From positions 45,481,450 through 45,545,449 of the forward strand of contig OX359250.1 in assembly GCA_947179485.1 (NCBI GenBank): a DNA stretch of 64,000 nt, given 5' to 3'. The position numbers were made by a program, and so were the translations under genes. The notes under the pieces are model-generated. The model saw nothing but the letters and a program-made list of their open reading frames with translations, ran no database searches and was not told the origin of the DNA. This stretch comes from Allacma fusca (lineage: Eukaryota > Arthropoda > Collembola > Symphypleona > Sminthuridae). Positions 4,468 to 40,422 of the stretch are shown here, one piece after another (the first letter of the stretch is position 1; every line of letters starts with the position of its first letter).

Positions 4468-4473
4468 CGTACG

Positions 4474-5075
4474 TGTTACGTATTAATAATAGGAAAGGAA
4501 TTACCTGAGTCAGAAATGCACGTAGGCAGTTAAACCTGACTCAGGACAAATCAACGGAAATGGAGCAAGAAGTAAACAATAAAGAGTTAGATTTAAGTAG
4601 GTTAAGTAGCGTAAGCATAATTAGGTATAAACAATAAATGTTAGCTGTAAGTTAGAGTTAGAAAAAGACAAGGCGTTCTAATTTAGTCTTCAAAGGAACA
4701 ACATCTCCAGGATTGGAACCCAGGGATTGGCAATGGGTCCATTCCGACCGGAATGGAACCCGCCACGGACATCAGAAATCCCACGTAGTGGATTCTCAAG
4801 AGAAGACAGTTTCCAGAAATGGAAAGGGTCCATTACCAAAATTAGTGTTAAATGTTAAGCGTTATAATTATAAGTTTATGTCAGTTAAGGAACATTATTA
4901 TTGGCCGAATAAAAGTGAACTACACACAGAAATAAAAGCAAAGCAAACCAAGCCTCATTAGTGATTAGCGCCATACCAACATCATGGACATTACGAGCAG
5001 CGAATGAGGCGCCCGAACCCGGGATACATCAAGTCCCTCTCTTTCTCAGCCGGGGAAGGGAGGGCAGATGTAACA
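4474..5075 (+). repeat. 5' LTR of giant element
   Basis: The 602-bp LTR starts TGTTAC and ends GTAACA, giving the canonical TG...CA ends within a 6-bp inverted repeat. It matches the 3' LTR at 36048-36649 with one difference seen (C at 5001, G at 36575). A TATAAA lies at 4626-4631. AATAAA hexamers lie at 4633-4638 and 4908-4913; the latter is the more plausible poly(A) signal, followed by CA-rich sequence. The 82-codon ORF at 4713-4961 is inside the LTR and shows no recognisable domain. Confidence 0.97.
4626..4631 (+). promoter_or_regulatory. Candidate LTR TATA box
   Basis: TATAAA within the 5' LTR, repeated in the 3' LTR. It is the only clear TATA motif in the LTR, so it is the best candidate for the element's genomic transcript. 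The start site cannot be fixed from sequence. Confidence 0.4.
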
Positions 5076-5093
5076 TGGTGTTTCTGTCAGGAC
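5076..5093 (+). promoter_or_regulatory. Primer binding site, probably tRNA-Val
   Basis: TGGTGTTTCTGTCAGGAC follows the LTR CA end with no gap. It begins TGG, complementary to a tRNA CCA tail. The next bases, TGTTTCTG, pair with an acceptor stem of the GTTTCYG type found in animal tRNA-Val. The T-stem part (TCAGG) departs from the usual CCGGG of tRNA-Val, so the exact tRNA is an inference. Confidence 0.75.
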
Positions 5094-5757
5094 TTCAGGT
5101 CACGGTAAGGGCCTGGAGTATCCAAAGGTCGGGGACCTGCGGATGACCCTGGATCACAGGAAAGTCGCTTTGTAGCAAGCATTTCCGTTGATTTATAAAC
5201 TCTCTCGATGGAAGTATGGGCTCAACTACCGGGCTATACATTGTATAGTACTATAACCGAGCACCCGAAACTTCGAGAGAAAGTCAGATAAAAACAACCA
5301 AAAAGTTCATCTCTCAAGAAAAATCGGACATCATCATCACGCGCGGATCCGGACAAGAAATTACAAGAATCCTAGAGCAGCACTATAATAGAAACTTTCG
5401 AAATGGCCATAGATTGTTTAATAAAAAGTGACTAGTGAGTTAGGCCCTTGCCTCACAAGGAAATTTTCGGGGCAAGGTGAGTACCTAATAAGGTGAGTAA
5501 CATTTTTCTTTACTTGAATATCATGAGTTAGGGGCTAAGCATAACTTTTGTACGTAGTTACGAGGAGCATATGATTTTTGGAGTAATTAACCAGAGATTA
5601 TGAGCAAATCATAGGTTTAAATTAGAAAATGGTGCATATATTTGCATGTATTTCTGGCTTTCAGATTCACATAGTAGGTGTAAGTACTTACATTTTCAAA
5701 AACAAATTTGATTCTTCCAATAGTATAAATCTATCTCTATCTTTTTAGAAGTCTAGG

Positions 5758-7800
5758 AGGGCCGACGGAAATTGAGCACTAGACATAGGGAGCTTAGAAG
5801 GGCCGGATTGAGCGCTAGGCATGTAGTGTCAGTATCGTAAAGGGTACTATTTAGGGCTGGAGGGCCGACGGAATTGAGCACAGCAAATAGTAGTCTTTCT
5901 CTTCGTAAGTTTAAGCCAGATTTTCAAAGGGCCGGATTGAGCGTGAAAATTTCGATAAAATCTTTACTCAAAATTTCACTTTCAAATTATTTAGGGCTCT
6001 GTCAGGAGGACAGGGCTCAGAAATAAGAATTCGGAAATCTTTCAAAAGCAATTTGAATTCACTTTTTTAGTATTAATGACTCAAAATTCACTTTCAAGTT
6101 CAGGTTATGAACACAATACGATCTATCATTTATTTTTAACTTTTTAGTATTCAAAAATAAATACTTTCTCATTTCACTCTAAAAACAGTTTCGTCTTCTA
6201 GGAATAAGTTAGCATTTGAAAGGCCGAGGATACGAGCGCAAATGTTCTTTAGAATGTCTTTTGACCTCCAAATTAACTAATTAAGGAGTTTAGGCTAAGC
6301 GGCAAATAATTAAAAACTCTTTAACTCCAAATTACTTTAATTATCTGAAGTGTAGGAATTACACGGATAAAAATAGGGATCTATCTTACATTTGTCTCAC
6401 ATTTTTCATACTTCCACATTTCGCCTTCTAGGGTTAAGTTAGCATTTGAAAGGCCGAGGCTATGAGCGCAAATGTTCTTTAGACACTCTTTTGATCTCCA
6501 AATTATTTAGTTAGGGAACCTTACGCTAGTAAGGTAAATAATCAAAACCTTTTCTCTCCAAATTACTTTATTTATCTGAGGTGTAACCTTTACACGGGTA
6601 AAAATATGAATCTATCTTAAAACTTTTCACATTTTCTTCTCCACTATTTTTTTTCTTTTCTACCCGGAGGGCCGGATTGAGCACGGGGTAATTAGACAAT
6701 CAATTTACCATGGACTTGGTAAATATTAGGAACTCAAAAATTTAATCTGAAGGGCTGGATTGAGCGCAGATATCAGATTTCAGTTAGTCATTTTTGCAAA
6801 TTTTACCTAAATAGCTCAGGTAGAGAGCGCAGGTACATCAGACCATCAAAAAGGCATAGTTTTAAGAACCCATACATTTTTCGGAAAGGCCGAGGATCTA
6901 ATTGAGCGCCGAGGGAATTCGCAATTAGTTAAGTTTGACAAAATTTAGTCTCAAAGGCCGAAGTATAGTGAGCGGGGACACATTGGCATTAGGATAGAAA
7001 CATACGTTTAAGAAAATCATAGTTTAATTTAGTATAGGGATTGAAGGGCCGAGGCGTGAGCGCAATCATTGTTGTGTATAGGATGTAATTTCATACGTAG
7101 AATCCGAGAGGCTAGAGAGGCAAAGAAGTTCATAAGGTCAACTTGAATTGAGTCATCTCAAGCACGGAGGTGGTCGGGGAGGCCGACAAAAGCACCGATA
7201 AGCCTGTCACCTACTAGAGGTAATCGGAGAGGCTATGATTGAAGTACCGACATAGGCATGTGTATTGTATTGTGCCCGAGCTGGACGGGGTTAGGTAACA
7301 GGTAGAGCTAACACCAGCAAGGAGGTTCACGGGGAGTGAATAGGATGACAGAGGACATTCCAACCACGGAATACCGCTTTAAAATCTTAGGCATAGGTTC
7401 CGGCTATGGATATGCATAAGGGAATTTCTTTATTTTCAACTCTTTTAGATGATTCATGGATCTTGATTTCATCATAGGGATAGCTGATCTCGAAGGAATG
7501 TTTAGAGTAGAGAGATTCAGCATAAGAAACCACAGACTCATGGGATTTGAGGACTGGTTATAGGGATAGGCATTCAGATATTTCCGGTGGCTTCGAAAAT
7601 ATTTGTCTACGACAGACACAGCCTTGCTGATGGTAGGATCAGTTCAAGGAAGTTCTTAGGTACGAATTAGGACACGAAACTTATTTCCCCAGTTGCGAAA
7701 TAATTAATAGTGAGGAATACAGTCCTGGATAATTTGGGAAATTATTATAGGAGTATTTAGGGAAATTTAGGCAACACCCGGCCGAGAGTGAGCAGTGTTG
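5758..7800 (+). repeat. Dispersed GGCCGA/GAGCGC leader motif array
   Basis: About 14 copies of a 16-28 base motif occur near 5758, 5791, 5849, 5926, 6217, 6449, 6666, 6749, 6891, 6953, 7043, 7175 and 7770, with weaker copies near 6002 and 6810. The conserved parts are GGCCG at the 5' side and GAGCG or GAGCA at the 3' side; the middle varies in length. All copies are in the same orientation and confined to the leader. The spacing is irregular (30-230 bases), so this is not a simple tandem array. Confidence 0.75.
6190..6640 (+). repeat. 230-bp diverged tandem duplication in leader
   Basis: Two copies start at 6190 and 6420. They share TAAGTTAGCATTTGAAAGG at the start, then GAGCGCAAATGTTCTTTAGA, a TCCAAATTA block and a GTGTA...ACACGG hairpin-like segment near the end. 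The copies are diverged but alignable throughout, so the leader grew partly by duplication. Confidence 0.8.
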
Positions 7801-8471
7801 ACAGACAATAAGGCTGATATTTTAAGGAGTAATTTTACGAATAAGTTTAAAAAGTAGGTACAACAGGTAGTCTAGGAGGAGAATAGGATTAAATAGATTT
7901 TAGAAGACAGTAGGTAAAAGAGGTAGAGTTACGGGTAATTTAAGGGAGTTTAGATGGTAAGAGAGTTAAGTTGTAAGGAAGTTAAGTTTTAAGGAGAAGT
8001 AAGTTTTAAGGGAATTTAGGTAGTAAGGAAAGTTAAGTTTAAAGAAGGATTTAAGTTTAAACAGGCTTAGTGATAACAGGTAAATAGGTAGTAGAAGTTA
8101 GCAGTTAAAAGAGATAGGGTTACCACAGGTTTCATAGGTTAGGGTCAGGTTTAATTTAGGAAGTACAGGTTGGCTTCAGGCTTAGGTTAAATCACGAAAA
8201 TTAAGTTCTAAGACAGATCAGGCTTTTAGTCTCCAAGTATTTATTTACAGTCTTCTTCTAAATTCAGCACGTCAGTAGGATATAAGCATAAAGGCAATAA
8301 GCACCCAACGAAATTTTAGACACGGTTTAAGTTATAATTTGGATTAAGTTTTAAGGAAGGTTTTCAGGAATTCATTGGCACGCACTCTCAAACAAACCCA
8401 GCAATTCATAAATCAACTCAAACGACTAGCATTTTCTCATACCACCCGAGAAAGTTAGAACGTTTTCAGGT

Positions 8472-9176
8472 ATGGATTCCAAGAGAAAACAACAACCATC
8501 TCAACGGAAGTCAACACCTACACCTTCAACAACATCTCGAAGGACTACGCGATCAACTGGACCAGTGCCAGACAATGAAGAGAGTCTTGAAGTTGCTATG
8601 GCCAAAGCCAAATTGGAGAGAAAAATGGCAAAGGCTAAAGCAAAAGCAGCACGGGAGTCAGGGGACTCCACAACCAGCAGTACATCATCCGTCTCGGAGA
8701 AATCGGTTTACAGAACCCCCGCAGCATCTGCACATAGTCCAAGAGACTCGCAGGCGGTGGGATACCGAGAAAGTCCAGACAATAAGGGAGACGATAACGT
8801 GTTCCTGGACTCGGTAACAAGTCCCCACAGTGGTTCTACCGTAAGTCCAAAAGGAACACCAACACAACAACAGGGTTCTCTCAGTAGACCCTCTCCAAAC
8901 CAATCCGCTGGACCATCGAGTACTAGAATTAGGCTCGTTTTCGAGGATTCAATGGAGGATACGGGTACGGTAATCAGACCCACAAGCGGAGAATCCGAGC
9001 AGGCGAAGGGTACCCACGACAGGCGGGACTCCGAGCGGAAGGAAAACCCACGTATCACCCACGCAACTAGAATTACGCGACCAACAGTCTGTACCACCGG
9101 TAAATCCGGAAGGACAAGGCGAGGTCATAGGCGAATTCATGCGAAATGCAGCGGGACAGCCCATCTACGTGAGTAA
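8472..9176 (+). CDS. ORF1a, N-terminal Gag-region protein
   Basis: 234 codons from an ATG two bases after a splice-acceptor-like TTTTCAG. The protein is disordered and rich in Ser, Thr, Pro, Lys and Arg, with an Ala/Lys helical patch at residues about 40-65 (AMAKAKLERKMAKAKAKAAR). No known domain is recognised; by position it is the start of the Gag precursor. From about 9000 on, the +1 frame looks more natural than this frame, and that +1 frame is open from 8974 into ORF1b. The two ORFs may therefore be joined by a +1 shift, or linked by reinitiation at ATG 9139, 38 bases before this stop. A simple one-base indel in this copy is also possible. Confidence 0.65.
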   Translation: MDSKRKQQPSQRKSTPTPSTTSRRTTRSTGPVPDNEESLEVAMAKAKLERKMAKAKAKAARESGDSTTSSTSSVSEKSVYRTPAASAHSPRDSQAVGYRESPDNKGDDNVFLDSVTSPHSGSTVSPKGTPTQQQGSLSRPSPNQSAGPSSTRIRLVFEDSMEDTGTVIRPTSGESEQAKGTHDRRDSERKENPRITHATRITRPTVCTTGKSGRTRRGHRRIHAKCSGTAHLRE

Positions 9177-11208
9177 GGACGCAAACCCGGTCATTAAAGA
9201 ATTGTTGGCACAGTTCAATGAACCGGAGTCAAGACCAACAAGTAGTGCAGCCACCTCATCTTTCGAAATCATCACGGATCCAGAGAGCATTCACACGAGT
9301 TTTGAGAAGATTGAGCAACAGGCTTCTACATCAGCAGATGGACGGGACATTACATCACCCAACAATGCCGATGTCAATGGAACAATAAGACCTGTTGACC
9401 AAGAGGAAATTGCTCAACCAACGATTGCACAACCCCAACCGGATGCAGATAAAGAAGATGAAGAGGTATTGAACAACAACACTACTGGACAAATAACTCC
9501 ACACGTAGATAAGCAGCAAGTATCAACAGCAAGTGCAGTTTCACAACAAGTGAACCAAACCAAAGGTAGTACGGAGAGTGAGCGTGAACAAACAACAACA
9601 CAACCGAAAGTGCAACAATTACCTTCAAAAATTACACCAGCATTTTCTAACAGAAGTGACACAGTACGGCAAAGAACATTCAGCCAGGTGTCTGAAGCTT
9701 CAGTACAGGAAGATCTGATAACAGAACAGATACCACAGATCGTGCCAGTAAGTAACGAAGTAAGTCTAGTGCAGACAAATCTCACACAACTGAGAATTCA
9801 CACAGGTGTAGAGATACCTGAAGGGTGCTTCGAGGAGCTAACGCGATCGGAGGGACTTCAGAGGAATCTAACCGAGAATTTTCTCATAGTGACAGAATTG
9901 GAAGGACACTGGATAGAGGTTTACCACAGGTTAGCACACCACACCTACACAGGTACGGTCCAATGGACACACTTCTTTATTAGAATAGCAGAGATTATTC
10001 ATAGGCGAAACTATAATCGATTACCAAATTGGGACGAATCAGAGGAATTGAGGAGAAGAGCACTCACTCACAGTAGAAACATCAGGGAAAATATTTTCAT
10101 ACCAACCGAATTAATTAGAAATCTGCTAGAAAGACACGTACTTTCATTTGGAAGTAGAACAAGGCACCAAGGAGGCCAAATTTTCTTTAACGATCAACCT
10201 AGGTACACTACGGTAACTTATGCCAGAAGGCATACCAGCACACAAGGTCACAGACGGCGTACTCGAGCTTATTCCAGTAGCGAAGAAAGGTCAGGCTCAG
10301 ATCAGGACGCGAATAACAACGAGACGGGCGAACGTAGAGTCGTAGACCCTAATGGTACTGACATTTTAAGCAGGCATTTGAGGTACGATTCACGACACCC
10401 ACCATTTTCACGAAATCCGATAACGGGTTTATTAGAACCAGCGTCAAGAGCAACAGTAAGACCGACAGACATTTATGACCGACCAGAATTTGAGCACGAC
10501 GCAGTTTACCAGGGATTACGACGAACAGATCTCATAGACCCCATACTACCCCACGAAGAAGTACGGACACCTCAAAGGTCAAAATTTGCTAGGAACTACA
10601 CTGACCTTAACAGTCAACCAATAACCCAACCACTTACAGGACCAACAGGTAAACCCATCTCACTATCCAGAAAAATACACAAAGGGCACCCGCGAACGTC
10701 AAGAGAGAATCAAGCAACCGCTTCCAGTTCAACCAGAGAACCCAGCACAGCCGACATAGCTGTTGCAGAAGAAATAAGGAAGAAATTTAGGGAAGAAAGA
10801 CCCACAATAACGCAATTAAACAAGGTCAAAAGCCTCAATCTAACATCAACCCGAACAAATAGTGGGACAGATAGCGACGACCAGGTAAATCCGACAACAA
10901 GGACCCCTTCGTTCGGAAAGACACCTAGGCGAACCTACAGAATTCCCACGAGCCAGAGCGACGATTTTAACTCAAGTCTCACAGGTAGGAGACCAGCTCA
11001 CAACCAACCAACAATTTCAAGAAATTCAGGTGAACAGGTACGACCAACGTCAAGTGAGCTACCACACAACAACTTAACCAGACAATCAAGAGACACCTGT
11101 AGCAGACCAACAAAAGCGAGACCAACTCGACAACACCCAAAACGCTCACAGGAGTCAAGACAAGTACACCAACGACAATTCGGGACTCTACGACCAAATC
11201 CGGAGTAA
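9139..11208 (+). CDS. ORF1b, large Gag-region protein
   Basis: 689 codons from ATG 9139; the same frame is open upstream to 8974. The first 200 residues are Gln/Thr/Ser-rich and disordered. Residues about 215-345 form a more ordered, Trp- and Leu-containing, helix-prone block (for example ELEGHWIEVYHRLAHH). The rest is Arg/Thr/Ser-rich. No family is recognised. It lies upstream of the capsid-like segment, so it probably belongs to an enlarged Gag precursor. Its 3' end overlaps ORF2, and CCCAAAA at 11136-11142 sits in the overlap in the correct phase for a -1 shift into ORF2. Confidence 0.8.
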   Translation: MRNAAGQPIYVSKDANPVIKELLAQFNEPESRPTSSAATSSFEIITDPESIHTSFEKIEQQASTSADGRDITSPNNADVNGTIRPVDQEEIAQPTIAQPQPDADKEDEEVLNNNTTGQITPHVDKQQVSTASAVSQQVNQTKGSTESEREQTTTQPKVQQLPSKITPAFSNRSDTVRQRTFSQVSEASVQEDLITEQIPQIVPVSNEVSLVQTNLTQLRIHTGVEIPEGCFEELTRSEGLQRNLTENFLIVTELEGHWIEVYHRLAHHTYTGTVQWTHFFIRIAEIIHRRNYNRLPNWDESEELRRRALTHSRNIRENIFIPTELIRNLLERHVLSFGSRTRHQGGQIFFNDQPRYTTVTYARRHTSTQGHRRRTRAYSSSEERSGSDQDANNNETGERRVVDPNGTDILSRHLRYDSRHPPFSRNPITGLLEPASRATVRPTDIYDRPEFEHDAVYQGLRRTDLIDPILPHEEVRTPQRSKFARNYTDLNSQPITQPLTGPTGKPISLSRKIHKGHPRTSRENQATASSSTREPSTADIAVAEEIRKKFREERPTITQLNKVKSLNLTSTRTNSGTDSDDQVNPTTRTPSFGKTPRRTYRIPTSQSDDFNSSLTGRRPAHNQPTISRNSGEQVRPTSSELPHNNLTRQSRDTCSRPTKARPTRQHPKRSQESRQVHQRQFGTLRPNPE

Positions 11209-14200
11209 CCCCGAGGTCAGGTAATTCTTGTCGCAACACCCCAGGGACAGCGGAACAAAGGTTCACGCACTACCCTGACATAACACAAGACATAACTCTA
11301 CAGGAAAATCCAGTGCAGCTCACACCTGTCACTCAAGAACACCAAAGAGCTACAGAAACTACACCCAGGAACCAACCAACTCAACCAAACTTACGGTTTA
11401 GGAATCAAACCATCAGAGACGATTTGGAAACTCCTACAGAAGAGACCCCTTCCACACAGTTAGGCACGGTAGCCCGGCCTACGCCAAGACCAAGTGAAGC
11501 TACGAGCAGATTATACGTCAACACAGAATTCAACGACGACGACGTTGACTTCGTGTCACAACGGGTATACCAGTCACCCGGAGGAAGAATCTACACTCAC
11601 CCACCAGTCTATGCTTTACGCGCACCAGCTTTAACGGTCAATACAGTCGATCTGAGAGGATTCGTACGGGCCGGACAGATCATCCGAGAGCAGCGACCAT
11701 CAGAAACAGTGGTGAGAACCATCAGAAACATCGACGGTACCTACTACCAGGCATTTAACAACCGAGAAAGATTCACAGTATACCAATCCCCCGGAGGATC
11801 ACTGTACAACAGCTTACCCCTAGGTCGAGCAGGCATTTTTCGCCACATTCTGCAAGGACGTGACCTAGTGACCAGGACATCTAACAACGATAGGACCCTC
11901 ATAGAAGGAGGAGAGCTAGTAGCAGTCATAAACACCAGTCAACCTGAAAATACTTCAAATAGCAACAGGTCCTACACCGAAGGGGAAACACTAAGGTCAC
12001 CCGTGGTACCGCCAGCAACAGCAACGCAACTTGCAACAACTATTGCAATACCACCCAGGCCGAGGGAAAGATCAGTAAACAGATCAATCAACCTCTCAAC
12101 AACTACTACGACAACAGCAACCACCACACGACCAACACCGACTGTGGTAAGGCCACCAGCGATATCACAGGCCACATCAACAGGTCAAACAGGAGCAAGC
12201 TGGGTCGACGATCCACGGTACAGCGTAAACACCTGGATTGGACCAAGTGGTAGAATCTACCTCGACGAGAACGACGCAACAGAAAGAAATCTCGTTCGCA
12301 GTCAGGCAACCGTACGCCAGGTAACACATTTGTGCCGAGTCAACGACAGGCGTAGAGCGAGAGAAGCAGCACATGAAGCAACTTGGACAGGTCAGGTGAG
12401 ACGATTAATCCATTTCAATAGGGAAGACGACCTTATCCAACGAAATTTCATACCAGCAATTGATGCTAACTTCGAAGCTGTAGCAGCTACAAGAACAGAA
12501 TACGAGGAAATCATCTCAAGTGACGACCCACCAATAGCATTTCGACGGTTAATAATTAGAAGGTCAGAAGACCCAGACCAAGTTACCAGCTACATCGCTA
12601 GGAACTATAGACTTTACCATCGACACATCAACTTACCCAACGGAATACACCGACAACGAATACCCGTAGCATTTTTCACAGGGTTAATAGATGAACACGA
12701 CCATCAGGAAGCTCTGACCAGGTTGCTATACAATCCAGAAATAGAAGTTCTAGCCGAAACCTCCAGCGAAGAGGAGGAAGAGCAGGTAGAAGAAAGGGAG
12801 AGCTCACGGCCAACTCCACAAAGGGAGAACGAGAGTCACAGGAGCAACAACTCCGAAATACACGAAGACGACTTCAGAATCGCAATAGATATCGAAGACT
12901 ACGTCATACAAGCAGTTCCCGGCGAATTTGCTTTACGAATATCCGCCGAAGCACTGCAAGAAGCAACACAAAGAGCAGCCGAAAGGGAACCAGAGCCCGA
13001 GGGAGAAATTCAGCTAGTAGATGAAGGCGGAATAGTACATTTCTTCCCAAGATTACAACTACAGGATCTTAATCCAGAATACCAGATAGTAATCACCAAG
13101 GATCGAAATAACAGAAAAAGACCACCCTTACGTGCACGTCGACAGATAGGCAACAATAACCCACGACCACCCGGTCCAGGACCAAGTGGGGCAGGTCAAG
13201 GTAATCCACGTGCACCACTGAATAGCAACAACGGAAATAACCCACGAGCACCTCAACAAAGAGGAAATGCAGGTCGAGGAGGAGTCAGAGGAGGTCGCCA
13301 CATAGGAGGTAGAAGGAGAGCGAGAGACGAACCTGGAGATTCAGGAGACGACTCATCATCCAGCTCCAGCAGCGACGACTCAGACCAAAACAACCGCGAA
13401 AATTTTTACGACCTACGACACGGACAGCTAGTCCACCGAAACAACCTAGTGAACCAACTGAACATCAACATCATCAACCCTTACATACCACCAAATCAAC
13501 ACAGAATCATACACATTGAAGAGATACCAGTTGAACCACCACCAGTAAGAATGTATTTAGACGACGAGATGTCAACATTCATGTTTCCCAAGGTAGAGTT
13601 CAACCCGGGCGAAGATGACCCCGAAACAGCATTCGCAACAGCAGAACTCCAGACCAACAGGTTTGGAGGAGATACGATAGAGACACGCATGCAATACGTC
13701 CAACTGATTTTCAGTCCAACGGTACGAGATTGGATCAGAAATTGGATAGCAGAGCGAAGACTAGTGGAACTCAGACCATGGGCGAATGTCAATTGGAACG
13801 ACTTCAAGGAAGAATTTTTGCAAAGATACGCAATCACGGACCCAATGATCCGTACGCTTATGGAAAGGCGCAAGATGCAACAAGATGAAGACCCATGTGC
13901 GTACATAGATGCAAAGCTAGCACTGATCAACAGGATTGACAGACACCTTCCAGAGGCAGAAAAGATCCGTCTAATCCGAGCAGGATTAACACCCGAATAC
14001 GTGGTGGCATGCCGAGGTTGGGAAGCGGACAACGTACCCGACTTCGTATATAGTATCAAGAAATACCACGAGGATCGCAAGACGGATGGAGCAGAATCCA
14101 TAGAGACAAGATTCGCGAAAGTCCAGCAAATGTTAGAGCAACTAACCACAGGTATGAAGACAGTACCAATGGAGACAGAGATAATCAAGGTAGCAGCCAT

Positions 14201-22945: not shown

Positions 22946-22955
22946 AAGGGCATGA
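21294..22955 (+). other. Overlapping frame with serial coiled-coil-like ORFs
   Basis: In the +1 frame relative to pol, six successive stretches of 60-100 codons encode Glu/Lys/Gln/Arg/Leu-rich, heptad-like helices. Most begin with an ATG soon after the previous stop: 21294-21494, 21507-21758, 21786-22088, an unnamed stretch ending near 22292, 22311-22553 and 22686-22955. Examples are KLQEEVNKLQLENVKTL and LEKELEERRQVIETLRNIL. The last stop (TGA) overlaps the ATG of the next ORF as ATGA at 22952. Purine-rich DNA read in the right phase can mimic coiled coils, so translation is uncertain. It may be dual coding, a decayed captured gene or a compositional effect. Confidence 0.35.
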
Positions 22956-23242
22956 GCAACGCTAGGATCTTAACACAGATTCCAGACTGCGTTTGCTTCG
23001 GAGCGGATGAAGTTGAATTAAGAGTTGGCGAACAAGTAAATCTCATCAGCTATTTGAATTACCAAGGAAGAAGAAGGTTACGACTCATAGGCACCTACAC
23101 GATAGTTGCCCAAGATCTAAACCACCCAAAAATTTTATATCTTCAAAAGAATGACCGACAACAGGTCCCAACGTTCGTCAGGGTCTCGAACCAACGAGTT
23201 CCGCCGACGAGAAGACGACCGACCAGAGGTAGACCGCGATGA
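22952..23242 (+). CDS. Small ORF, 96 aa, possible SH3-like fold
   Basis: In the same frame as pol, with ATG 7 bases after the pol TAA. Its ATG overlaps the TGA of the coiled-coil frame (ATGA). The protein has an ordered core with beta-like pattern (RVGEQVNLISYLNYQGRRRL; then GTYTIVAQDL, ILYLQ, FVRVSNQRVP) and an Arg-rich tail. The pattern recalls the GPY/F or SH3-like C-terminal module of integrases, but this is a weak visual likeness. ORF4 begins within it in another frame, 92 bases before its stop. Confidence 0.55.
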   Translation: MSNARILTQIPDCVCFGADEVELRVGEQVNLISYLNYQGRRRLRLIGTYTIVAQDLNHPKILYLQKNDRQQVPTFVRVSNQRVPPTRRRPTRGRPR

Positions 23243-27785: not shown

Positions 27786-30140
27786 GTCCGACGAACAAGA
27801 CCCGAATTGGACCAAATATTCGGACGCAGCACATTACCCACCTGCTCATTCACCATGACAGGAAGACTACAACAAGTACGACAGCAAAAACCAGCCACGA
27901 AGGACAAGGAGAGACCGGGACAGAAAATCAGGTCAAGAAGTGTCTCACCCGAAACACAAATACCATCCCGGCTGGACGAAGAGAACTCTCCGGAGGCGAA
28001 CGGACAGCCCCCCGCAGACACCAACAACCTTAATACCCAAGATAGGTTAACTCCACCAGGTGAAAACGCCAGGAAAAGGAGGAGAGGTCGCCAACGACGG
28101 CGAAGACAGGGAGATGACCATGAAAACCCGGAGGAACCGGAAGTAGATGAACTACGGGAACCGGATGGACCACCTGGATACCAGAATGATCCTCACGTGC
28201 GATTTATTGACTTGTCTAGCGCGCTTTTTCACATTGACGACCATGGTTGGATGGTCGGTACAGGATGGGAAAGAAGTCAACCTGAGACAGTCATCTTCAC
28301 ACACCCTGACCACGCACGAAGATTTCAAGACTTGGACGTGGTACAACGGTACATAAAGGACTTGAAAGAACGAATCCAAAACCCACTGGACCATACACCA
28401 GACAATTCACTGGACGACACATTAGATGACATCTCATTGGACGAGCGAAGGCAACGTCACCAACCACGTCAGGACCTTAACCAACTACAATGGAACATCC
28501 CGCTGACAGGAAGGAATCGAGACGTGTTCCGCAGGTGTGGAAAATGTCGGAGACAATTCCCCGAAGACCCGGAAAAATTTCCGGCATGTGACCGAGAAAG
28601 GAGATACGATCCGACCCCAGAACAACACTTAGTTAGTTGGGTCAATAGGATGTATCGGGAAACCTTCATCGGAAGACTGCATGCACACCCTTTAAACAGA
28701 CAACCCCCTCAAATTAACTTGGAACAACTCCAAAAGGCTTTGAACACAATTCAGAAGCCACCCGTCAACATCAGAGAGTCAAATCAAGAATACTACGAGC
28801 AACAGGAAGGTATTGACTTCAACGACAGACGGGAAGTCATTCGGGAACGACGAGCTCTGTTATATGAGGCAATGGACAGGCCAACGGACTTTCGCCGCCT
28901 AGACGCAAGGGAAAGGGACATCCTACTATTATACGGACAAACTCGGAGGAACATCCCAATGGAAAATACCCGCCTGGAGACGATGGCAGGGAATCTCAGC
29001 ATTTCCCCCGGGGCAATGATTCCTAGGCTTTGGACAATCCTGTTCAACGGCCAGCAAGGACGCCATAGAGGAGCTACCATCCCACCTAGATTGGAATGCA
29101 GAGAGCACCAAGGAACGCTCCACGGACTAACGGGAAATGAAATACGAAGTCTACTCACACGCATGTGGTACGACATAGGGTCACAACCAACATGGTTGGA
29201 GCAACAGACGTGGATGGAAAGCTTCCTGGTGAAAGGTGAAGCAATCGCCCCACGAGGAGAGAAAGCCTTGGAGATGTTGGCAGACATACCTCCGCACTTA
29301 CTCAGCTTCACGGAATTCGCAAGCATGGCAGAGAGGATGATAACCCTATACCAACAAGAGGCAGCGATAGAGGAATGGCAAGGCCTACAGTCATACAATC
29401 AGAGCACCGGGACCCGACCAAATCAAATTTCAGAAATATTACAGGAAATAGGGCAATGGGAGGATTGGATGTTCGCAATGACAAGCGCAGCTGAAGGAGA
29501 GAAACCAACAAAACTTCACGCACAAAGAAAGGCGGGAGGAGTCATCACAATACGACAACCCCGAGGAGCGGGAAGGTTTCTCTACCTAGACGAACTCGTG
29601 ACGGTCAGAATTTGGGAAAAAGAACAATTTCACCGGATACGGGAAAGAATTAGCGAACGACCAACAGGACCCCACTATCAACCCTACACCATGAGAGAAC
29701 AGGACGAACGAAGGCCTGGAGTGACTTCAATACATCTAGTAAATCAGGCCATGGAAAGATTTCAAACACCATTCTGGCAATCTATAGTTGTGGAGGCCAG
29801 GCTAGCAGAAAGAGAGTTAGAAAACCTAGTCCAGACGCTGGGGGAACGAACGGACGTCGAGATCATCTTCAGAGACCCCGGACAGGATGTCATAAACACG
29901 GCTCCTAGAGGAGACCCAGTTTACACGACAAGACAAATGCCGTACCTTTCCATCTCAATACCAACGGAAAGGGAACAACTCATACGAGAACTACGAAGGA
30001 CACGGTACAACGCGGAACGAGATCTACTTCTAACAAGGACTCATCCATTCGTAGTACTGTCCTTCCGGACGAGAATAGACGAAGAAGCAGAGTCGGACAC
30101 CCTGAAGGGACCGTCCAACCAGGAAGAAGAACGTCAATAA
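27786..30140 (+). CDS. ORF4c, large protein of unknown function
   Basis: Continues the frame after TAG 27783-27785; the first ATG is at 27855, so it could start independently. Residues about 80-110 hold a strongly basic run (ARKRRRGRQRRRRQG) resembling a nuclear or RNA-binding signal. A C-x2-C...C motif occurs near 28540-28590 (CGKCRRQF...ACDRE). The remaining 500 residues look globular, helical and Trp-containing (for example RSLLTRMWYDIGSQPTW), with no glycosylation or membrane features. No known domain is recognised. It ends in a charged tail at TAA 30138. Base usage is A-rich and T-poor like the other element ORFs. Confidence 0.78.
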   Translation, partial: VRRTRPELDQIFGRSTLPTCSFTMTGRLQQVRQQKPATKDKERPGQKIRSRSVSPETQIPSRLDEENSPEANGQPPADTNNLNTQDRLTPPGENARKRRRGRQRRRRQGDDHENPEEPEVDELREPDGPPGYQNDPHVRFIDLSSALFHIDDHGWMVGTGWERSQPETVIFTHPDHARRFQDLDVVQRYIKDLKERIQNPLDHTPDNSLDDTLDDISLDERRQRHQPRQDLNQLQWNIPLTGRNRDVFRRCGKCRRQFPEDPEKFPACDRERRYDPTPEQHLVSWVNRMYRETFIGRLHAHPLNRQPPQINLEQLQKALNTIQKPPVNIRESNQEYYEQQEGIDFNDRREVIRERRALLYEAMDRPTDFRRLDARERDILLLYGQTRRNIPMENTRLETMAGNLSISPGAMIPRLWTILFNGQQGRHRGATIPPRLECREHQGTLHGLTGNEIRSLLTRMWYDIGSQPTWLEQQTWMESFLVKGEAIAPRGEKALEMLADIPPHLLSFTEFASMAERMITLYQQEAAIEEWQGLQSYNQSTGTRPNQISEILQEIGQWEDWMFAMTSAAEGEKPTKLHAQRKAGGVITIRQPRGAGRFLYLDELVTVRIWEKEQFHRIRERISERPTGPHYQPYTMREQDERRPGVTSIHLVNQAMERFQTPFWQSIVVEARLAERELENLVQTLGERTDVEIIFRDPGQDVINTAPRGDPVYTTRQMPYLSISIPTEREQLIRELRRTRYNAERDLLLTRTHPFVVLSFRTRIDEEAESDTLKGPSNQEEERQ

Positions 30141-30306
30141 CCTAACCAGGAGGACGTTGGCCGACTACCAACAACTGAGTCACGGCCACAAAAAAGAACC
30201 AAGCGGGGAGCTAAATTACTCAATGACGGAAGAAATTCCTGAGGGGAATGTAGATTAGATCATTTCTGTAAAGGAATGACCTAGCGTAGTTACATTTAAC
30301 ATGACC

Positions 30307-30350
30307 TTATGTAATATCAACCATCGGGATTTACGGCGGATATTACATAA
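30307..30350. repeat. Perfect 12-bp inverted repeat
   Basis: TTATGTAATATC (30307-30318) and GATATTACATAA (30339-30350) are exact inverse complements around a 20-base loop. It lies between the ORF4c stop and the ORF5 promoter, so it could be a protein-binding site or an RNA hairpin at the 3' end of the ORF4 region. Confidence 0.6.
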
Positions 30351-30583
30351 TCAGTCAACAAAACAGTATAACAATAAGAGAAAATTAAAGAAACATAATA
30401 ACAAAATGTATCGAAAACCAAAACAAAAAGATGAGGAAAGTATTAACTATTTAATGATCTCAGATCCCTAGGATGTAATAAGTTACGCCACAGGAAGTTA
30501 CAGGTCAGATCTCAACCTAGATCTCGACCGCAAAAGAATTTTTCCGCATTCGGGAAATTTATAAACACTAAACAAAAGGAGGG

Positions 30584-30616
30584 TATAAAATCGAGACTCT
30601 CAGCCGAGAGTTCTCA
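30584..30616 (+). promoter_or_regulatory. Internal TATA/initiator promoter for ORF5
   Basis: GGGTATAAAATCG has TATAAAA at 30584-30590. About 32 bases downstream is TCTCATAATC, with a TCA-type initiator (A at 30616). ORF5's ATG follows 94 bases later at 30710. TATA-to-initiator spacing of about 30 is standard for RNA polymerase II. The promoter is inferred from sequence only. Confidence 0.6.
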
Positions 30617-30709
30617 TAATCACTCCAAACACTCTAGAGAGCTCAAAACCTGAGGCTACTCAGTGGAAACTCAAGATTTACCAGAAAAATTTTCTCGGAA
30701 CTACCCGAC

Positions 30710-31417
30710 ATGAAGTATCAACTACTTTTGTGCCTCACAATGGTGCTTATTGTGACGGACGTAATAGTGGACAGCAAGCCTTTACCAAGGCCCAACCCGG
30801 AGCCTGTACCACCATTGATCGCAGCGATACTTGCAGCAGGAGGATCATGGTTGGCAAAATCCATGATACCAGCAATGGCAGTAGGAGTAACAGCCATTAC
30901 GGCCTCAGTCATGATGCATAAGGATCCGGAAGTGCATATACTTCACCATAACGAGGAAGGAGATCTTCAAATAGTTCCATACGACCCGGAGGCACCAAGT
31001 GACAGGGCCCAGGAGATGATGGCACTGAACCAGCAACAAGCCATAAGGCAAGCTCAGCAACCGCTGATGCAGCCACGGTTTCAGGATGAACGTCCACCAT
31101 GGGTACAGGAATTTATGGAGGCGAAATGGAAGCCCAATGAGGTTCCATCACCCGAGGCGGACTACACTGTGCTCATCATTGGATCCATAGGAGGAGTTTC
31201 AACAATCATTATCACGATTGTAACCATCATCCTTTATCGGATCAGGAGTATGCGGAAGAGAGGCAGCCATCAGCTAGTACGGGACCAGGAGATGGATAAC
31301 GTCGCAACCGCGGCTTTAGTTCAGGATTCCGTAGAACAATTGATGGGCTGTAAGCTAGTGAGACCCACTACGACCAATGCCAACCGGCAGACCAGCAGAG
31401 CCACGTTGCAGATCTGA
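30710..31417 (+). CDS. ORF5, small secreted or membrane protein, two hydrophobic segments
   Basis: 235 codons from ATG 30710. The N-terminus is a clear signal peptide (MKYQLLLCLTMVLIVTDVIV then DSKP). Residues about 34-67 are a long Ala/Met/Ile-rich hydrophobic stretch, residues 75-150 a charged Pro/Gln-rich linker, and residues about 154-176 a strong transmembrane helix (VLIIGSIGGVSTIIITIVTI) followed by a basic RSMRKR stop-transfer and a roughly 55-residue tail. It probably spans the membrane with a cytosolic C-terminus. It lacks the size, cysteines and cleavage site of known env proteins. It has its own upstream TATA promoter, unlike the other ORFs. The function is unknown; an accessory or envelope-associated role is a guess. 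Confidence 0.8.
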   Translation: MKYQLLLCLTMVLIVTDVIVDSKPLPRPNPEPVPPLIAAILAAGGSWLAKSMIPAMAVGVTAITASVMMHKDPEVHILHHNEEGDLQIVPYDPEAPSDRAQEMMALNQQQAIRQAQQPLMQPRFQDERPPWVQEFMEAKWKPNEVPSPEADYTVLIIGSIGGVSTIIITIVTIILYRIRSMRKRGSHQLVRDQEMDNVATAALVQDSVEQLMGCKLVRPTTTNANRQTSRATLQI

Positions 31418-34400
31418 GAATACAAGCAGCAGGGGCAACGCAAGAAAGAAGAAAGAAGACAACAAAGCAAAACAACAATATTCATCAAACTGTATGGATA
31501 AAAACTGTTCAATTATGTATTCATTTATACATGACATAATAGGTAATTTTAAGATAGGATAATTAGATGTAACCTAGAATAATGATTTAATTTCCGTTGT
31601 AATAACATCATGCGAACCAACTATATAAACAGTCAATCAACTTTTCGCAAACACCTACAAGTATCAAGGTTAAAGAACCAAGTTTTAGACACATCGCATT
31701 CATACACGAGAATTTATAGTTTACACGTATATCATCATGAGTATAACATTCATACAATCACACGGTAACATTTGACAAGAAACCATCTTGAAAGGTTAGG
31801 ACTAGTAAACTTTGTAGCAGTCCGCATCGACATGAAGTCATTCATCAGTTTCACCTTTTTCACACGCATTCAATTGTACAATTTGGATAAAATGTTTATT
31901 GTCCAACAACTACGAGTAACAAGTTTTATTTTTGAATTCTATCCCCCCGACATATTTTTAAGTACGCTTCAATAACTTTTGCCAGCAAAAGCACAACAAT
32001 TGCTAACTCATTGTAGAGATTACTGGAGTATAAAGACAGTAAGTTGCTGCTCCAGGAATGTATGGAACAGAGTTTACTAATTATGAGTCATGAGACAAAT
32101 TAGAACTGAGGAAGGAACTGAGGTTCAATCCTATCTCCAGACACAATTTTGTCGTAACAATTGAGAAGGAAAAATGCTTTCTGTAAACACACGGATACGG
32201 CAGGTTCAGTCTATTGCCGTTATTTCCATCGTAATTATTCACCACAGGAATCAAGCAGACGATTTTGATAAGATTCACTTTTTGCAATAGTAAGTGAGTA
32301 GGTAGTAGAGTGAAATTACAGCTCATTAATTTTCTCTCCCCACTTCCCACGCTAGCAAAAGTGAAAATAATTGGGAAATCAGAGTCTGAGCAAGTCAAAA
32401 AATTATTAACGGTGTCCCAGATTTTGCATTTTTGTATTTTGCAGATCCAGTTACCCCCAATCCCGTAAGTTCTTGAGACTTTTCTTGCACATTAAACTTA
32501 GAATCACGAGAGTGCACATATACTCACAAGTTCCTTTGAGATTTTTCGGACAGTGTTCTCGAGCGATTAGACTAGGCCACCCCAAACTAGGTGTAGACGG
32601 TCAACAAAAAGCCGATAGAGCAAGTTCGGGAGAATTCAGGAAACACTGTGAGTAGGATACATATAACTATGAGTTTGAGCATACACAATCACAGGTTACA
32701 ATACGGAATAGTCACAGCATGAAGGCATGTCAGGCAGGTACCTTAGGTCAAGAAAGTAAATCCTAAGGGTAGCACAGGCAGAATAATCTTCGGAAAGATT
32801 CCTTATTTCTAGGAGGAGTATTATATTTTCATTAACTAACCGTATCAATATATTATGAAGATATAAGAAACCATAGAAACGGTAGGAACATTCATTTTAG
32901 TTTGTTCCCTTCAACGCCGAAAGACATTTAGTATTGCAGACAGGTGACAAAGGATGTTTTGTTCACTCAGAATTTAAGTTTCCGTATACAAACACGTTTA
33001 TGAGAATCTGGTATATAAGGAAGTCTACCTTAAATGATGTACCAATAATTTTAACATCCTCTTTAATTTTTAGCAAAACAATACCCATTTTTACTGATCG
33101 GTTAATGCTCCCCAAAAGGAGTTTTCGTATCCGGTTACCTGCAGAATAATTTCTATTGGCCCTAGGTCATTTTGATGAATCCAAACAGTCATACCCTTGA
33201 CCAGAAAGTCAGATATACTAACAATAAGTTTGTATTTACGAAATGCGACATGTCATACACAATTTTTGGAAAAGGTAAATTTTGTTCCGTCTTTGGCAAT
33301 GGACGTTAAAAGTACAACATAGGGTTTAGTCTATTACGCGGGTAAGAAATTTGGTGATAGGTACTACCGTTTAAAAGAAATACGAACCCCAGCCCAATAT
33401 AACCACATGATCTAAATCAGGAATGCGAACATTTTCGCTAGCTGAATTAGTACATTCAACACCAGATACAGTATCCAAAACTTTCATTCATTTATTATTT
33501 ATTTTTCCAACACGAAAACCCAGTAAGGACAACAAATTGTTTTCAGGCACAGCGTACACAGTTACAGCTTGCCACATAAATTCCAACCCTATAGTAAACA
33601 CTGCCAGTCTCAAGTTACGGTGATGCAGGATATTCATCTGGACACAATTTTTCCACAGAGGCGAGGACGATTGTCAAAGCTTCGTTATTTTCGATTTCTA
33701 GAACAAAGTTTTTCAACAACTTCTAAACACATTTGGTCGTCTAATGTAAACTCTACTCTCCGACTTCAGAGTCCAATTTTTTTCTGACAATTTTGACACA
33801 TGGTAGACTTCTTAAGCTGTGCAGCATCCATAGAGCCGATCTTGTAATAAAACCCAGAAATTCCCCAATAACATATCCCAAAAACAAATTTCAAACCCTG
33901 ATGCGTTTACAAGATTACCTTTCATCAACATGTGGAACTTGAGTATATCCACTCGTTCATTCCCTTGACCAAGAAAATCGAATTTCAGTTTAAACCATCA
34001 TTTCAAGTCACTCTGAACACAGTAAATGCATTCAGAAGCGTCACCGTTCGAAAGGTATGTTAGAACTTGGTATTGGTAGGTAAGAAGTTATAAAACCCGG
34101 TACAATTCCGAGATTGACAGTATCGAACGGGAAACCGCCGGAGAAAGTTCACAGGTGAAAGCCATTCGCAGGTAGAGACAGATAATTACACACTCTGTCT
34201 CCCAGCGGCCTATAGTCATCATCTGTGCGCTATGTTTCCGTTCCAGTTCAAAAGCTAAGCAAGTATAAGATACAAGGTATAACATTTACAACAAAAACAT
34301 TGAAGGTTTAGAACTCTGAGGTAAAGATCGGTAGGATCATCTTAAATTCTTAAACATCAGTTTCTTCGGGATAGAATAAACATACATGGTTACACATACC

Positions 34401-36037
34401 GGATTGATGTCTATGGATGGTGCGTCAGAAATCCCGTAGACACCAACGCATTTCGTTTCTAAAGATTGGTCATATGTATTATTTCATGAGCGACAATACA
34501 ACTCCGTTGTGATTTAGCCCATATCCTAACTCAAAAAGCTTGACTAAACGAACCACGTATAACGTTCTGTAATTAGCTAACATTTGTTTCACTTCATTGT
34601 TAATGAGTTTATCATGTGTAACGAGGGAATAGTAATGATCTTCCATCACTCACGTTTAATTGTAATAACCAGAATGAATTCCAGTAATAAGTTTTGACAA
34701 ACCCCGACATGAAATTACTCACAGTCGCCAATGTCACGTAATCGTTTCGATTAATTGTCCTTTAGGAGTCATCCATCCGTTCGCAGATCGTTCGGTACGG
34801 TCCCTGACTCACGATAGAGATCGAAACTCAGGGAAAGCGAAGCACGCCAAAAAACCATATATAAAACGACAAGTATAAGACAGGTAGTAACAAGTTACAG
34901 CGGCATGGTTTCATAGCACTGTACAATCTATTTTTAAGATCGATTACAAGTTACAGTTTGCTTTTGACCCGCAGGTTAACAAGATCCAACAGATACTAGT
35001 CGACTTTCAGTTTCAGCTCACAATCCTCTCGTTATACAGCCAAAGCACGGAATGCAACAATTCCAGTAACCAATGCTTTTCATCCCTATCCCAAATATAG
35101 AATCTCCCTACGTTAGAGTTCACACACTTTAGTAAATAACAAGGGAAAACATATTTACAATTTTCATCTCACACGTTCACAACCCAACTGGATTAACTCA
35201 GAAATTTTAACAGAGAAATTTTATAACTTTAATGGCAACAGTTTCTTTCGCACTAGTGCCAAATTCAACTCCACTAGACATTTCAATGTGCAATACCTTG
35301 CACAAGGTTACTCACCATCTTTTTCATCGACAATGCAAGCAGAATAGGAATTGATCCAACTGAGCTTCACGAATGTTACAAAATATGCTTCCGCCATATT
35401 TGCGGGCGTACCGACATTGAATTCTACAAATCTATCATCTTAACTTGAACAAAAATAAGAAACACAATAAAGAAAACACGGTAAACACAGTCACACTTCA
35501 GCATGTGAACCGGTAGGATAGGGTGTACAGGTATGGAATGGACGTTTAACCATCTTCAAAACCTATCCTAAGCAACAAATACAAATGTCATTGCACCCAG
35601 AATAACCTAACAACGGTCAAAACCACACACACGTTTTAAATTGAATAAATGTTAAACTAAAATTAGCCATAATTTTCAAAAATTGCTTGAACACCTTGTT
35701 TGTATACAACTTTTCCGAGTAAAAATATTTGTGTCTAAATAGCAACAAGTGTAACATGATAATGATGTGCGAAAACCCCATAATCAATATAGTGGAGTAC
35801 AAATGAACATATTTTATACAAATTGTCCGATAATAAATACCAAGAATTGAGAAATGACATGTAAAGAACAGAGAGATGAACACATATGTAAAACCCAGTG
35901 ATACATTCATGTATGTAATACCCCGTAATTCAGTGATGTAAACAAATATGAACAAATGTATGAAACGTCAGATGCATGAAATATTGTGAAATTAACATTG
36001 AACTTGAATTTAGCATTGCCGAGGTCGACAATGACCC
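31418..36037 (+). other. 4.6-kb non-coding 3' region of the element
   Basis: No ORF above 112 codons and none with recognisable features. Base composition is balanced AT-rich, unlike the A-skewed coding part. Good TATA-like boxes occur at 31623-31630 (CTATATAAACAGTC), near 33012 (TATATAAGG) and near 34856 (ATATATAAAACG). These could drive non-coding RNAs, or be chance matches in AT-rich DNA. AATAAA hexamers are scattered (for example near 33844 and 34376). The region may be a long 3' UTR or captured host DNA. Confidence 0.6.
31623..31630 (+). promoter_or_regulatory. Candidate TATA box in non-coding tail
   Basis: TATATAAA within CTATATAAACAGTCAATC, in a local context similar to that of the ORF5 promoter. 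No ORF follows within 200 bases beyond a 67-codon one at 31772. Low weight. Confidence 0.25.
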
Positions 36038-36047
36038 AGAAGAGGAA
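36038..36047 (+). promoter_or_regulatory. Polypurine tract
   Basis: AGAAGAGGAA, ten purines ending exactly at the first base of the 3' LTR (TGTTAC at 36048). The position and composition are those of the plus-strand primer of LTR retroelements. Confidence 0.9.
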
Positions 36048-36649
36048 TGTTACGTATTAATAATAGGAAAGGAATTACCTGAGTCAGAAATGCACGTAGG
36101 CAGTTAAACCTGACTCAGGACAAATCAACGGAAATGGAGCAAGAAGTAAACAATAAAGAGTTAGATTTAAGTAGGTTAAGTAGCGTAAGCATAATTAGGT
36201 ATAAACAATAAATGTTAGCTGTAAGTTAGAGTTAGAAAAAGACAAGGCGTTCTAATTTAGTCTTCAAAGGAACAACATCTCCAGGATTGGAACCCAGGGA
36301 TTGGCAATGGGTCCATTCCGACCGGAATGGAACCCGCCACGGACATCAGAAATCCCACGTAGTGGATTCTCAAGAGAAGACAGTTTCCAGAAATGGAAAG
36401 GGTCCATTACCAAAATTAGTGTTAAATGTTAAGCGTTATAATTATAAGTTTATGTCAGTTAAGGAACATTATTATTGGCCGAATAAAAGTGAACTACACA
36501 CAGAAATAAAAGCAAAGCAAACCAAGCCTCATTAGTGATTAGCGCCATACCAACATCATGGACATTACGAGCAGGGAATGAGGCGCCCGAACCCGGGATA
36601 CATCAAGTCCCTCTCTTTCTCAGCCGGGGAAGGGAGGGCAGATGTAACA
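36048..36649 (+). repeat. 3' LTR of giant element
   Basis: 602 bp, same ends and length as the 5' LTR, offset 31,574. The only difference seen is G36575 against C5001. AATAAA at 36482-36487 is the likely poly(A) signal for the genomic transcript. The right flank starts directly with the second copy of the 1709-bp repeat. Confidence 0.97.
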
Positions 36650-40228: not shown

Positions 40229-40422
40229 TCATTTTGTGAATAATAAACAAATATATACATTGAGGTCTTCTTACAATTAGTGATATTTTCAACTTTACTC
40301 ACGTTCTACGCATACGAGGCGCCACCTAATATGCGTTTAGCCGTGTCTTTAAAATTCTACGTATTGAAGTGCGTACTGCTTTTTTCCTGCGAAGAATGTG
40401 GTTGAATGTGCGTTGCTTTTAA
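40229..40422. other. Short spacer before MITE
   Basis: AT-rich single-copy-like DNA; nothing recognised. A GTGAATAATAAACAA string near 40235 recurs at about 60540. Confidence 0.4.

Follow-up and report, generated by a model that had tools for sequence, protein, structure and literature searches.

A recently inserted 32-kb Ty3/Gypsy element with two additional genes under purifying selection in the springtail Allacma fusca

Introduction

Does a 32-kb stretch of chromosome X2 of the springtail Allacma fusca, bounded by near-identical long terminal repeats (LTRs), represent one giant Ty3/Gypsy (Metaviridae) element, and are the open reading frames (ORFs) that follow its pol gene genes of its own? 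The stretch occupies positions 4474-36649 of the window, by which we mean the whole 64,000-nt segment analysed (45,481,450-45,545,449, forward strand); all coordinates below are positions in this window. A first-pass annotation had described a recently inserted giant element with five groups of ORFs and had reasoned from the similarity of its LTRs that the additional coding sequence is functional cargo. Our results support the recent insertion of a giant LTR-flanked Ty3/Gypsy element of Allacma fusca that has two extra genes of its own, ORF3 and ORF4, both under selection, and we put the probability of this reading at about 0.88.

Results

One gag, one pol and a pair of near-identical LTRs

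The element is 32,176 bp long, with 30,972 bp between the LTRs, and its ends are defined by the following features.

4474-5075, + strand: 5' LTR, 602 bp, from pairwise comparison with the 3' LTR
5076-5093, + strand: probable primer binding site, TGGTGTTTCTG, directly 3' of the 5' LTR
31418-36036, + strand: 3' non-coding region, after ORF4
36037-36047, + strand: polypurine tract, AGAAGAGGAA, directly before the 3' LTR
36048-36649, + strand: 3' LTR, 602 bp, from pairwise comparison with the 5' LTR

The LTRs begin with TGTTAC, end with GTAACA and agree at 601 of 602 aligned bases, which confirms the single difference counted in the first-pass annotation and the recent insertion proposed there. 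Assuming a neutral rate of ~3e-9 per generation, this difference corresponds very roughly to 0.3 million generations (Poisson limits 0.007-1.5 million). The features that place the element in Ty3/Gypsy are the TG...CA LTR ends, the Pol order protease, reverse transcriptase, RNase H and integrase (PR-RT-RH-IN), and a Gag with capsid and CCHC zinc knuckle; a target-site duplication of 4-6 bp is found at other insertions of the family, but not at the window copy. Pfam identifies one gag and one pol (PR, RT, RNase H, integrase zinc finger, rve and p58_C) in the element, and a search of the window with the domains of the element's own pol found no second pol at E <0.1. The separate pol genes of two nested elements, which the first-pass annotation had named as one outcome that would refute it, are not seen. 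An Rfam scan of the window gave no match at gathering scores, and a search for the nematode SL1 leader, made as a test of the host, also gave none.

Four genes are present, encoding a giant Gag, Pol, ORF3 and ORF4, with a total open frame of roughly 7,400-7,500 amino acids. The enlarged Gag region, the pol inserts, the 7-kb frame, the membrane protein and the long non-coding ends that had been proposed are each present. The five ORF groups, however, reduce to four genes: the coding regions exist, and the extra splits come from lesions of the window copy. Some other copies have unbroken frames.

The extra genes recur in other copies and in a second family

A whole-genome LTR search, in which 40 of 89 candidate places were scored, revealed at least 17 same-strand LTR pairs and 6 single places, as judged by strand and spacing. 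The pairs span 30-35 kb in 14 of 17 cases and 21-27 kb in the other three. ORF3 sequence, whole or partial, is present in all 16 other LTR-paired copies, for which the cargo region was fetched. The first-pass annotation had named absence of the extra ORFs from all other copies as fatal to its reading, and this outcome is not seen. Ten of the 16 align over 23001-31600 in one piece, while the remainder are cut by the fetched range or bear deletions. One copy of 20.8 kb (L013) keeps both LTRs but is missing three parts of its interior; one of the junctions carries a short repeat of the kind that template switching during reverse transcription would leave.

Searches with coding sequence separate two families. 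The Pol N-terminal query, with 56 of 2,252 candidates scored, gave 23 matches at 93-100% identity and 33 at 83-84%; the ORF3 domain query, with the best 67 of 259 candidates scored, gave 25 at 96-100%, 3 at 78-85% and 39 at 51-52%. The second family (family 2, the window element belonging to family 1) thus comprises at least 39 ORF3 matches, with 44-52% amino acid identity to family 1 in ORF3. Our reading of family 2 draws on stretches of four copies, with pol fetched only at its start and LTRs located in three, and over these stretches the order is that of family 1: leader, single gag frame, ORF3 and ORF4. The copy measured is 28.75 kb long, with 570-bp LTRs that are 100% identical; other family 2 LTR pairs are identical over 548 bp and 99.7% identical over the 394 bp read, and in family 1 two further pairs show 1/601 and 0/601 differences. 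These LTR identities indicate that the family is recently active.

Family 2 gag frames are open over 2,196-2,221 amino acids (11/11 matches without internal stop) and its ORF3 over ~2,206 (at least 2,201 in 25/39 matches); in many family 2 ORF3 matches a single stop was counted within the match, and its position mostly corresponds to the gene end. A sequence similar to the primer site lies at the equivalent place in family 2, and the polypurine tract is found in both families, with one base different in one of five family 1 copies read. The 3' non-coding region (31418-36036) has no match to the family 2 stretches read, apart from its last bases.

ORF3 and ORF4 are under purifying selection

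The two genes and their parts are as follows.

23151-30140, + strand: ORF3, open frame of ~2,340 amino acids in unbroken copies, two in-frame stops here
25461-27240, + strand: envelope-like middle of ORF3, ~50% amino acid identity to family 2
25515-25571 and 25872-25928, + strand: hydrophobic segments of ORF3, by hydropathy
near 26223 and 26514, + strand: basic RxRR sites of ORF3, from sequence
27303-27695, + strand: zinc-finger-like part of ORF3 rich in CxxC, with five such motifs in the window copy
28158-30137, + strand: conserved C-terminal domain of ORF3, 51-52% amino acid identity between families
30710-31417, + strand: ORF4, membrane protein of 235 amino acids
31175-31231, + strand: transmembrane segment of ORF4, by hydropathy

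The ratio of non-synonymous to synonymous substitution (dN/dS) was computed over 55 pairs of 11 other copies, and variable sites were counted over 12 aligned copies (the window copy and these 11), five incomplete copies being excluded. dN/dS is 0.144 for ORF3 and 0.184 for ORF4, and the lowest of ten ORF3 bins (0.042, at 28743-29441) falls in the C-terminal domain. Variable sites at codon positions 1/2/3 number 263/187/723 in ORF3 and 43/24/100 in ORF4, as against 30/31/28 and 28/31/30 in the non-coding controls (spacer and 3' region). Between families, amino acid identity is 44-50% for ORF3 and 48% for ORF4; where the window and four family 2 copies have the same amino acid, the same codon is used throughout in only 37% of 889 cases.

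ORF3 and ORF4 are therefore under purifying selection, and because they are also present in both families, they are genes of the element and not the outcome of decay or nesting. The earlier view of the extra coding sequence as functional cargo is retained on the strength of dN/dS and codon-position bias. Its argument from near-identical LTRs is not, since the window copy has such LTRs and is nevertheless broken in three of its four genes.

Unbroken ORF3 frames of at least 2,340 amino acids without a stop in the match occur in 4/24 other family 1 matches. An in-frame stop is absent from the aligned ORF3 frame in 4/11 other copies when frame-shifting indels are ignored, and several copies carry single-base and other frame-shifting indels in ORF3. 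Changes private to the window copy in ORF3 are 39 silent and 22 non-silent, and its line was therefore under selection for most of that time. The ORF3 stops were considered as recoding sites; this was ruled out, as none of the other aligned copies that have sequence at these two sites shows a stop there. Synonymous sites of gag and ORF3 were also scanned for conservation that might betray hidden RNA elements; the best p values, 0.002 (gag) and 0.0069 (ORF3), are not significant given the hundreds of overlapping windows scanned, and the ORF3 windows ranked first to fourth, likewise not significant, all lie within 24912-25500.

Layout and relatives of the ORF3 and ORF4 products

The ORF3 middle has a possible Met start at 25461, a signal-like hydrophobic segment, a second hydrophobic segment and N-glycosylation motifs. 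Family 2 retains the Met and the two hydrophobic segments, together with two of the three basic sites. No C-terminal membrane anchor was found in this part at the hydropathy threshold used. The CxxC motifs number only two in the whole ORF3 part of the family 2 copy compared. ORF4 consists of a signal-like start, a Gly/Ala-rich hydrophobic patch, the transmembrane segment and then a polybasic stretch. The last two were identified by hydropathy in the window and by alignment in family 2, and two further hydrophobic segments precede them.

ORF3 has no convincing relative in Pfam, NCBIfam, PDB sequences or viral contigs, the last giving 102 pattern matches to the ORF3 domain and no relatives. In a large protein collection, none of 7,999 scored candidates matched the C-terminal part, and the sole match to the middle part among 8,000 scored was an Allacma fusca protein; these searches covered the two parts named, with the first 812 amino acids of ORF3, as well as ORF4, outside them.

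Gag, Pol and the predicted frameshift

The remaining parts of the element are listed here.

5094-8471, + strand: long 5' leader, from family 2 comparison and alignment folding
8472-15191, + strand: ORF1 gag, open frame of ~2,260 amino acids in unbroken copies, broken here by frame changes
~13734-13991, + strand: capsid-like domain of Gag, Pfam Retrotrans_gag, near the C-terminus
~15081-15131, + strand: zinc knuckle of Gag, Pfam, C-terminal end
15158-15186, + strand: predicted -1 frameshift signal, GGAAAAC, 7-nt spacer and GGGGG-ACGCA-CCCCC hairpin
15192-22945, + strand: ORF2 pol, frame open from 15083, overlapping the gag end
~15311-15607, + strand: protease
16358-16840, + strand: RT
17057-17440, + strand: RNase H
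~17510-19520, + strand: low-complexity insert of pol between RNase H and integrase
~19598-20641, + strand: integrase
after integrase, to 22945, + strand: low-complexity pol tail

The leader is 70-82% identical to family 2 over 6676-7876 (200-bp bins). Alignment folding of five sequences, with 30 column shuffles per window and a median z of -1.4 over 43 windows, predicts stem-loops at 5150-5307 (z -8.5) and 5541-5696 (z -4.6), for which a role as packaging or dimer signal is plausible. The top-scoring window (6325-6485, z -12.7) is poorly conserved and of small energy, and we distrust it.

The Retrotrans_gag match (E 1.3e-4) is just under the curated cut-off and the zinc knuckle is over its own. 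In the family 2 copy scanned, 1,718 amino acids of Gag precede the capsid match, and the parts of the window Gag that correspond to this region consist of 67-70% disorder-promoting residues by composition. With a genome query covering the last 1,292 amino acids, 14/19 other full-length family 1 gag matches are free of internal stops, 11 of the 14 having a frame that reaches 2,256 amino acids or more. Pol is open over ~2,570-2,670 amino acids in unbroken copies (at least 2,573 without a stop in the match in 8/22 other family 1 matches) and carries ~670 extra amino acids between RNase H and integrase and ~720 after integrase. Disorder-promoting residues, by composition count, make up 69% of the spacer and 79% of the tail, compared with 54% of PR-RT-RH, so that both additions appear disorder-like in make-up.

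The pol frame is -1 relative to gag and overlaps its end, and it is reasonable to suppose that the overlap holds a -1 frameshift signal. The slip site reads GGAAAAC in the window and GGGAAAC in all three family 2 copies read, while the 7-nt spacer and the GGGGG-ACGCA-CCCCC hairpin are common to all four. A common TAG appears in 32/33 matches of the family 2 pol search; of the three copies read, two carry it within the gag-pol overlap, ahead of the slip site, and one lacks it, and therefore no read-through is required.

The window copy: lesions, integration and flanks

The window gag has two frame changes when compared with a family 2 copy, in which gag is a single frame; pol has an in-frame stop at 19754, within integrase, and ORF3 has in-frame stops at 25587 and 27783, while the ORF4 frame is open. 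As gag, pol and ORF3 are broken, this copy is unlikely to be autonomous. One LTR difference leads to an expectation of ~26 internal substitutions since insertion (0.7-143), and the lesions could therefore postdate insertion or have been carried in by a copy moved in trans.

Other insertions show short duplications: ATAT is duplicated in all three read on both sides (two of family 1, one of family 2), and the right side is ATAT in 6/7 read and GTAT in one. The window copy has no short target-site duplication, and 1,709-bp blocks on either side take its place.

2759-4467, + strand: 1,709-bp flank block, left, duplicated after the element
4468-4473, + strand: 6 extra bases between the left block and the 5' LTR
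36650-38358, + strand: 1,709-bp flank block, right, 100% identical to the left block

The likeliest reading is an irregular integration, in which the ends would have been joined 1.7 kb apart and then repaired. The window contains no N letters. The duplication is unlikely to stem from two X2 haplotypes, because the sequenced animal is male (PMC10427803) and male zygotes of the group eliminate one X1 and one X2 at an early embryonic stage (PMC9630974).

The flank block (2759-4467) is itself part of a degenerate repeat. With 40 of 355 candidates scored, at least 100 matches were found, and the 100 listed comprise 63 on X2 (the flank pair included), 25 on X1, all within 41.34-41.48 Mb, and 12 on chromosome 4; none of those listed is on the three largest autosomes. 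Such an X-biased repeat is of interest, as males of Allacma fusca eliminate X1 and X2 copies.

The right flank also holds tandem arrays at 38642-40229 (38 bp, ~42 copies), 48912-49395 (50 bp, ~10 copies) and 50235-51339 (22 bp, ~50 copies). Further on, inverted arms at 55733-55954 and 62180-62401 (222 nt, 93% complementary, 6.2 kb apart) have tandem repeats of 12 bp close to their inner ends, and the interval between them contains no ORF of 150 amino acids; the structure is possibly a non-autonomous DNA transposon. Elsewhere in the genome, five nuclear copies of mitochondrial COX1 were seen on contigs C12 (chromosome 4), C5 (X1) and C8 (323/327 query residues). They are probably recent mitochondrial insertions, since TGA is their only apparent stop.

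Kinship of the reverse transcriptase

The best PDB sequence match of RT-RNase H is Ty3 Gag-Pol (E 1.1e-71 and 3e-70). Against collection proteins identity does not exceed 43-44%, the best being from the pseudoscorpion Cordylochernes (120 of 658 matches compared). The comparison of RT with Burro and other clades suggested in the first-pass annotation was carried out with trees of 47 and 20 rows. The window RT is the longest end branch, no starred group holds it in the larger tree, and the free trees place it outside the Burro-layout group, without firm support. Grouping it with two polyproteins of Burro layout (P0063 and P0109, labelled from layout alone, the tree holding no named Burro sequence) is not rejected by the approximately unbiased (AU) test (p 0.085). 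Pairing it with P0086, a pol with Baculo_F and the only errantivirus stand-in, is likewise not rejected (AU p 0.556).

Discussion

From its anatomy, the element would be transcribed from the LTR, its giant Gag translated and Pol produced through the -1 frameshift; reverse transcription would start from the tRNA-type primer site, and integration would create a 4-bp ATAT duplication. ORF3 and ORF4 would be translated from spliced or shorter mRNAs. The window copy has perhaps been moved by the proteins of other copies, or was broken after insertion. We tentatively suggest, at somewhat less than even odds, that ORF3, with its processed envelope-like middle, and ORF4, as a small sORF2/FAST-like protein, are membrane or particle proteins for cell-to-cell passage, perhaps from soma to germ line.

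Several observations weigh against parts of this picture. Expression, splicing and frameshifting of the element are predictions, and the folding advantage of the frameshift stretch in the window is modest (z -2.05, with 6 of 200 shuffles equally good). ORF3 has no match to an envelope (Env) family in Pfam or the protein-collection searches. One of its three basic cleavage-like sites is not kept in family 2; because ORF3 is Arg-rich, such sites prove little by themselves and may have arisen by chance. The Pfam matches of ORF4 are all weak, below cut-off and to transmembrane segments of other proteins, the best being a protocadherin model (E 3e-4). ORF4 also lacks a myristoylation motif, has a signal-like start and, at 235 amino acids, is long for a FAST-like protein.

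The likeness of ORF4 to such proteins is partial. According to PMC11952523, sORF2/FAST-like proteins may allow MDG1-group elements of flies to move out of follicle cells into the oocyte, the sORF2 protein follows pol in 7/22 moth and butterfly consensus elements, and the MGxxxS/T myristoylation motif occurs in 4/6 fly sORF2 proteins and so is not universal. ORF4 resembles these proteins as a small membrane protein with an outer hydrophobic patch and a polybasic stretch after the membrane segment, but differs in its signal-like start, its length and the absence of MGxxxS/T.

Errantivirus-type elements have an AT-rich target preference, and the families described here share with them a 4-bp AT-rich duplication and extra gene(s) after pol. 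They differ in size and in that Pfam matches neither ORF3 nor ORF4 to Baculo_F or any other Env; errantivirus-type Gypsy elements have a baculovirus-like Env (PMC12440569). Giant size itself is known from Ogre, a plant Ty3/Gypsy element of up to 25 kb with extra ORFs and LTRs of 1.9-6.5 kb (PMC6431247). Ogre owes its size mostly to these long LTRs; the present element, with LTRs of 0.6 kb, owes its excess to coding sequence and to its non-coding ends.

Grohme et al. reportedly described the giant Burro Gypsy elements of planarians in 2018, and by size class Burro is indeed the nearest precedent, as the first-pass annotation held. That the element is itself a member of this planarian lineage is improbable. 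Burro exceeds 30 kb, has a Ty3/Gypsy pol and large extra coding capacity with env-like content, and encodes a single Gag-env-Pol polyprotein of 4,873 amino acids with MATH, BCL2, ankyrin and other domains (reviewed in PMC6431247). Size class and pol agree with such a membership, and the AU test tolerates a grouping with the two Burro-layout polyproteins, of which P0063 is 41% identical over RT-RNase H and both share a Ty3/Gypsy RT. Yet these two have their own Monjiviricetes fusion glycoprotein match upstream of PR, whereas the gag and pol parts scanned here gave no glycoprotein match in Pfam that would correspond to the env-like part of Burro between gag and pol. In place of the single polyprotein of Burro, Gag and Pol are here separate overlapping frames, with the extra genes downstream of pol and no known domain found in them; the free trees, too, put the RT in another position, though not with firm support. 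Less probable still is that the extra ORFs come from a second mobile element, nested in or adjacent to a normal Ty3/Gypsy element downstream of its pol. The RH-IN spacer and the post-pol region are unusually long, as such an arrangement might leave them, but no second pol or other transposase was found in the element, and the single pol together with ORF3 in 16/16 copies, 10 of them aligned in one piece, and the same gene order in family 2 largely refutes it.

Two explanations concern the extra genes alone. Passive retention of unselected frames in a recently expanded family would agree with the expansion seen in the LTR identities, but it is the least credible of all: dN/dS, the codon-position bias beside flat controls, and 44-50% amino acid identity across families despite such frequent codon replacement refute it for the whole of ORF3 and of ORF4. 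The idea that they are accessory genes, captured or evolved, for host defence or RNA handling, such as nuclear export or silencing suppression, deserves more weight and is still rather doubtful. Accessory regulators are common in complex retroelements, and ORF3 has Arg/Ser-rich stretches, lacks an Env match and, in the window copy, carries CxxC motifs; however, the ORF3 hydrophobic segments are conserved, ORF4 has a clear transmembrane segment in both families, and no host homologue was seen among the best 67 of 259 genome candidates.

The preferred reading, a recently inserted giant element with ORF3 and ORF4 as its own selected genes, has several implications. A Ty3/Gypsy element of ~29-32 kb can stay active in many copies in a hexapod, beyond the planarian and plant cases, and the extra genes of these springtail giants are under strong selection. 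No giant Ty3/Gypsy element in springtails was found among the PubMed Central titles and abstract starts listed, a search that left Repbase, most subscription journals and most preprints outside. We regard it as possible, though unlikely, that the families are an undescribed springtail lineage of virus-like giant Metaviridae whose transfer between cells would depend on a membrane apparatus of a new kind, made of two parts (a giant ORF3 that is processed and an ORF4 that is FAST-like) and without kinship to known Env families. The packaging and reverse transcription of a 30-kb RNA become testable in an arthropod, and ORF3, giant and with no relatives found, and ORF4 are candidates for a new means of cell-to-cell passage. 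Soma-to-germline transfer, if true, would be of special interest in Allacma fusca, a species with paternal genome and X elimination.

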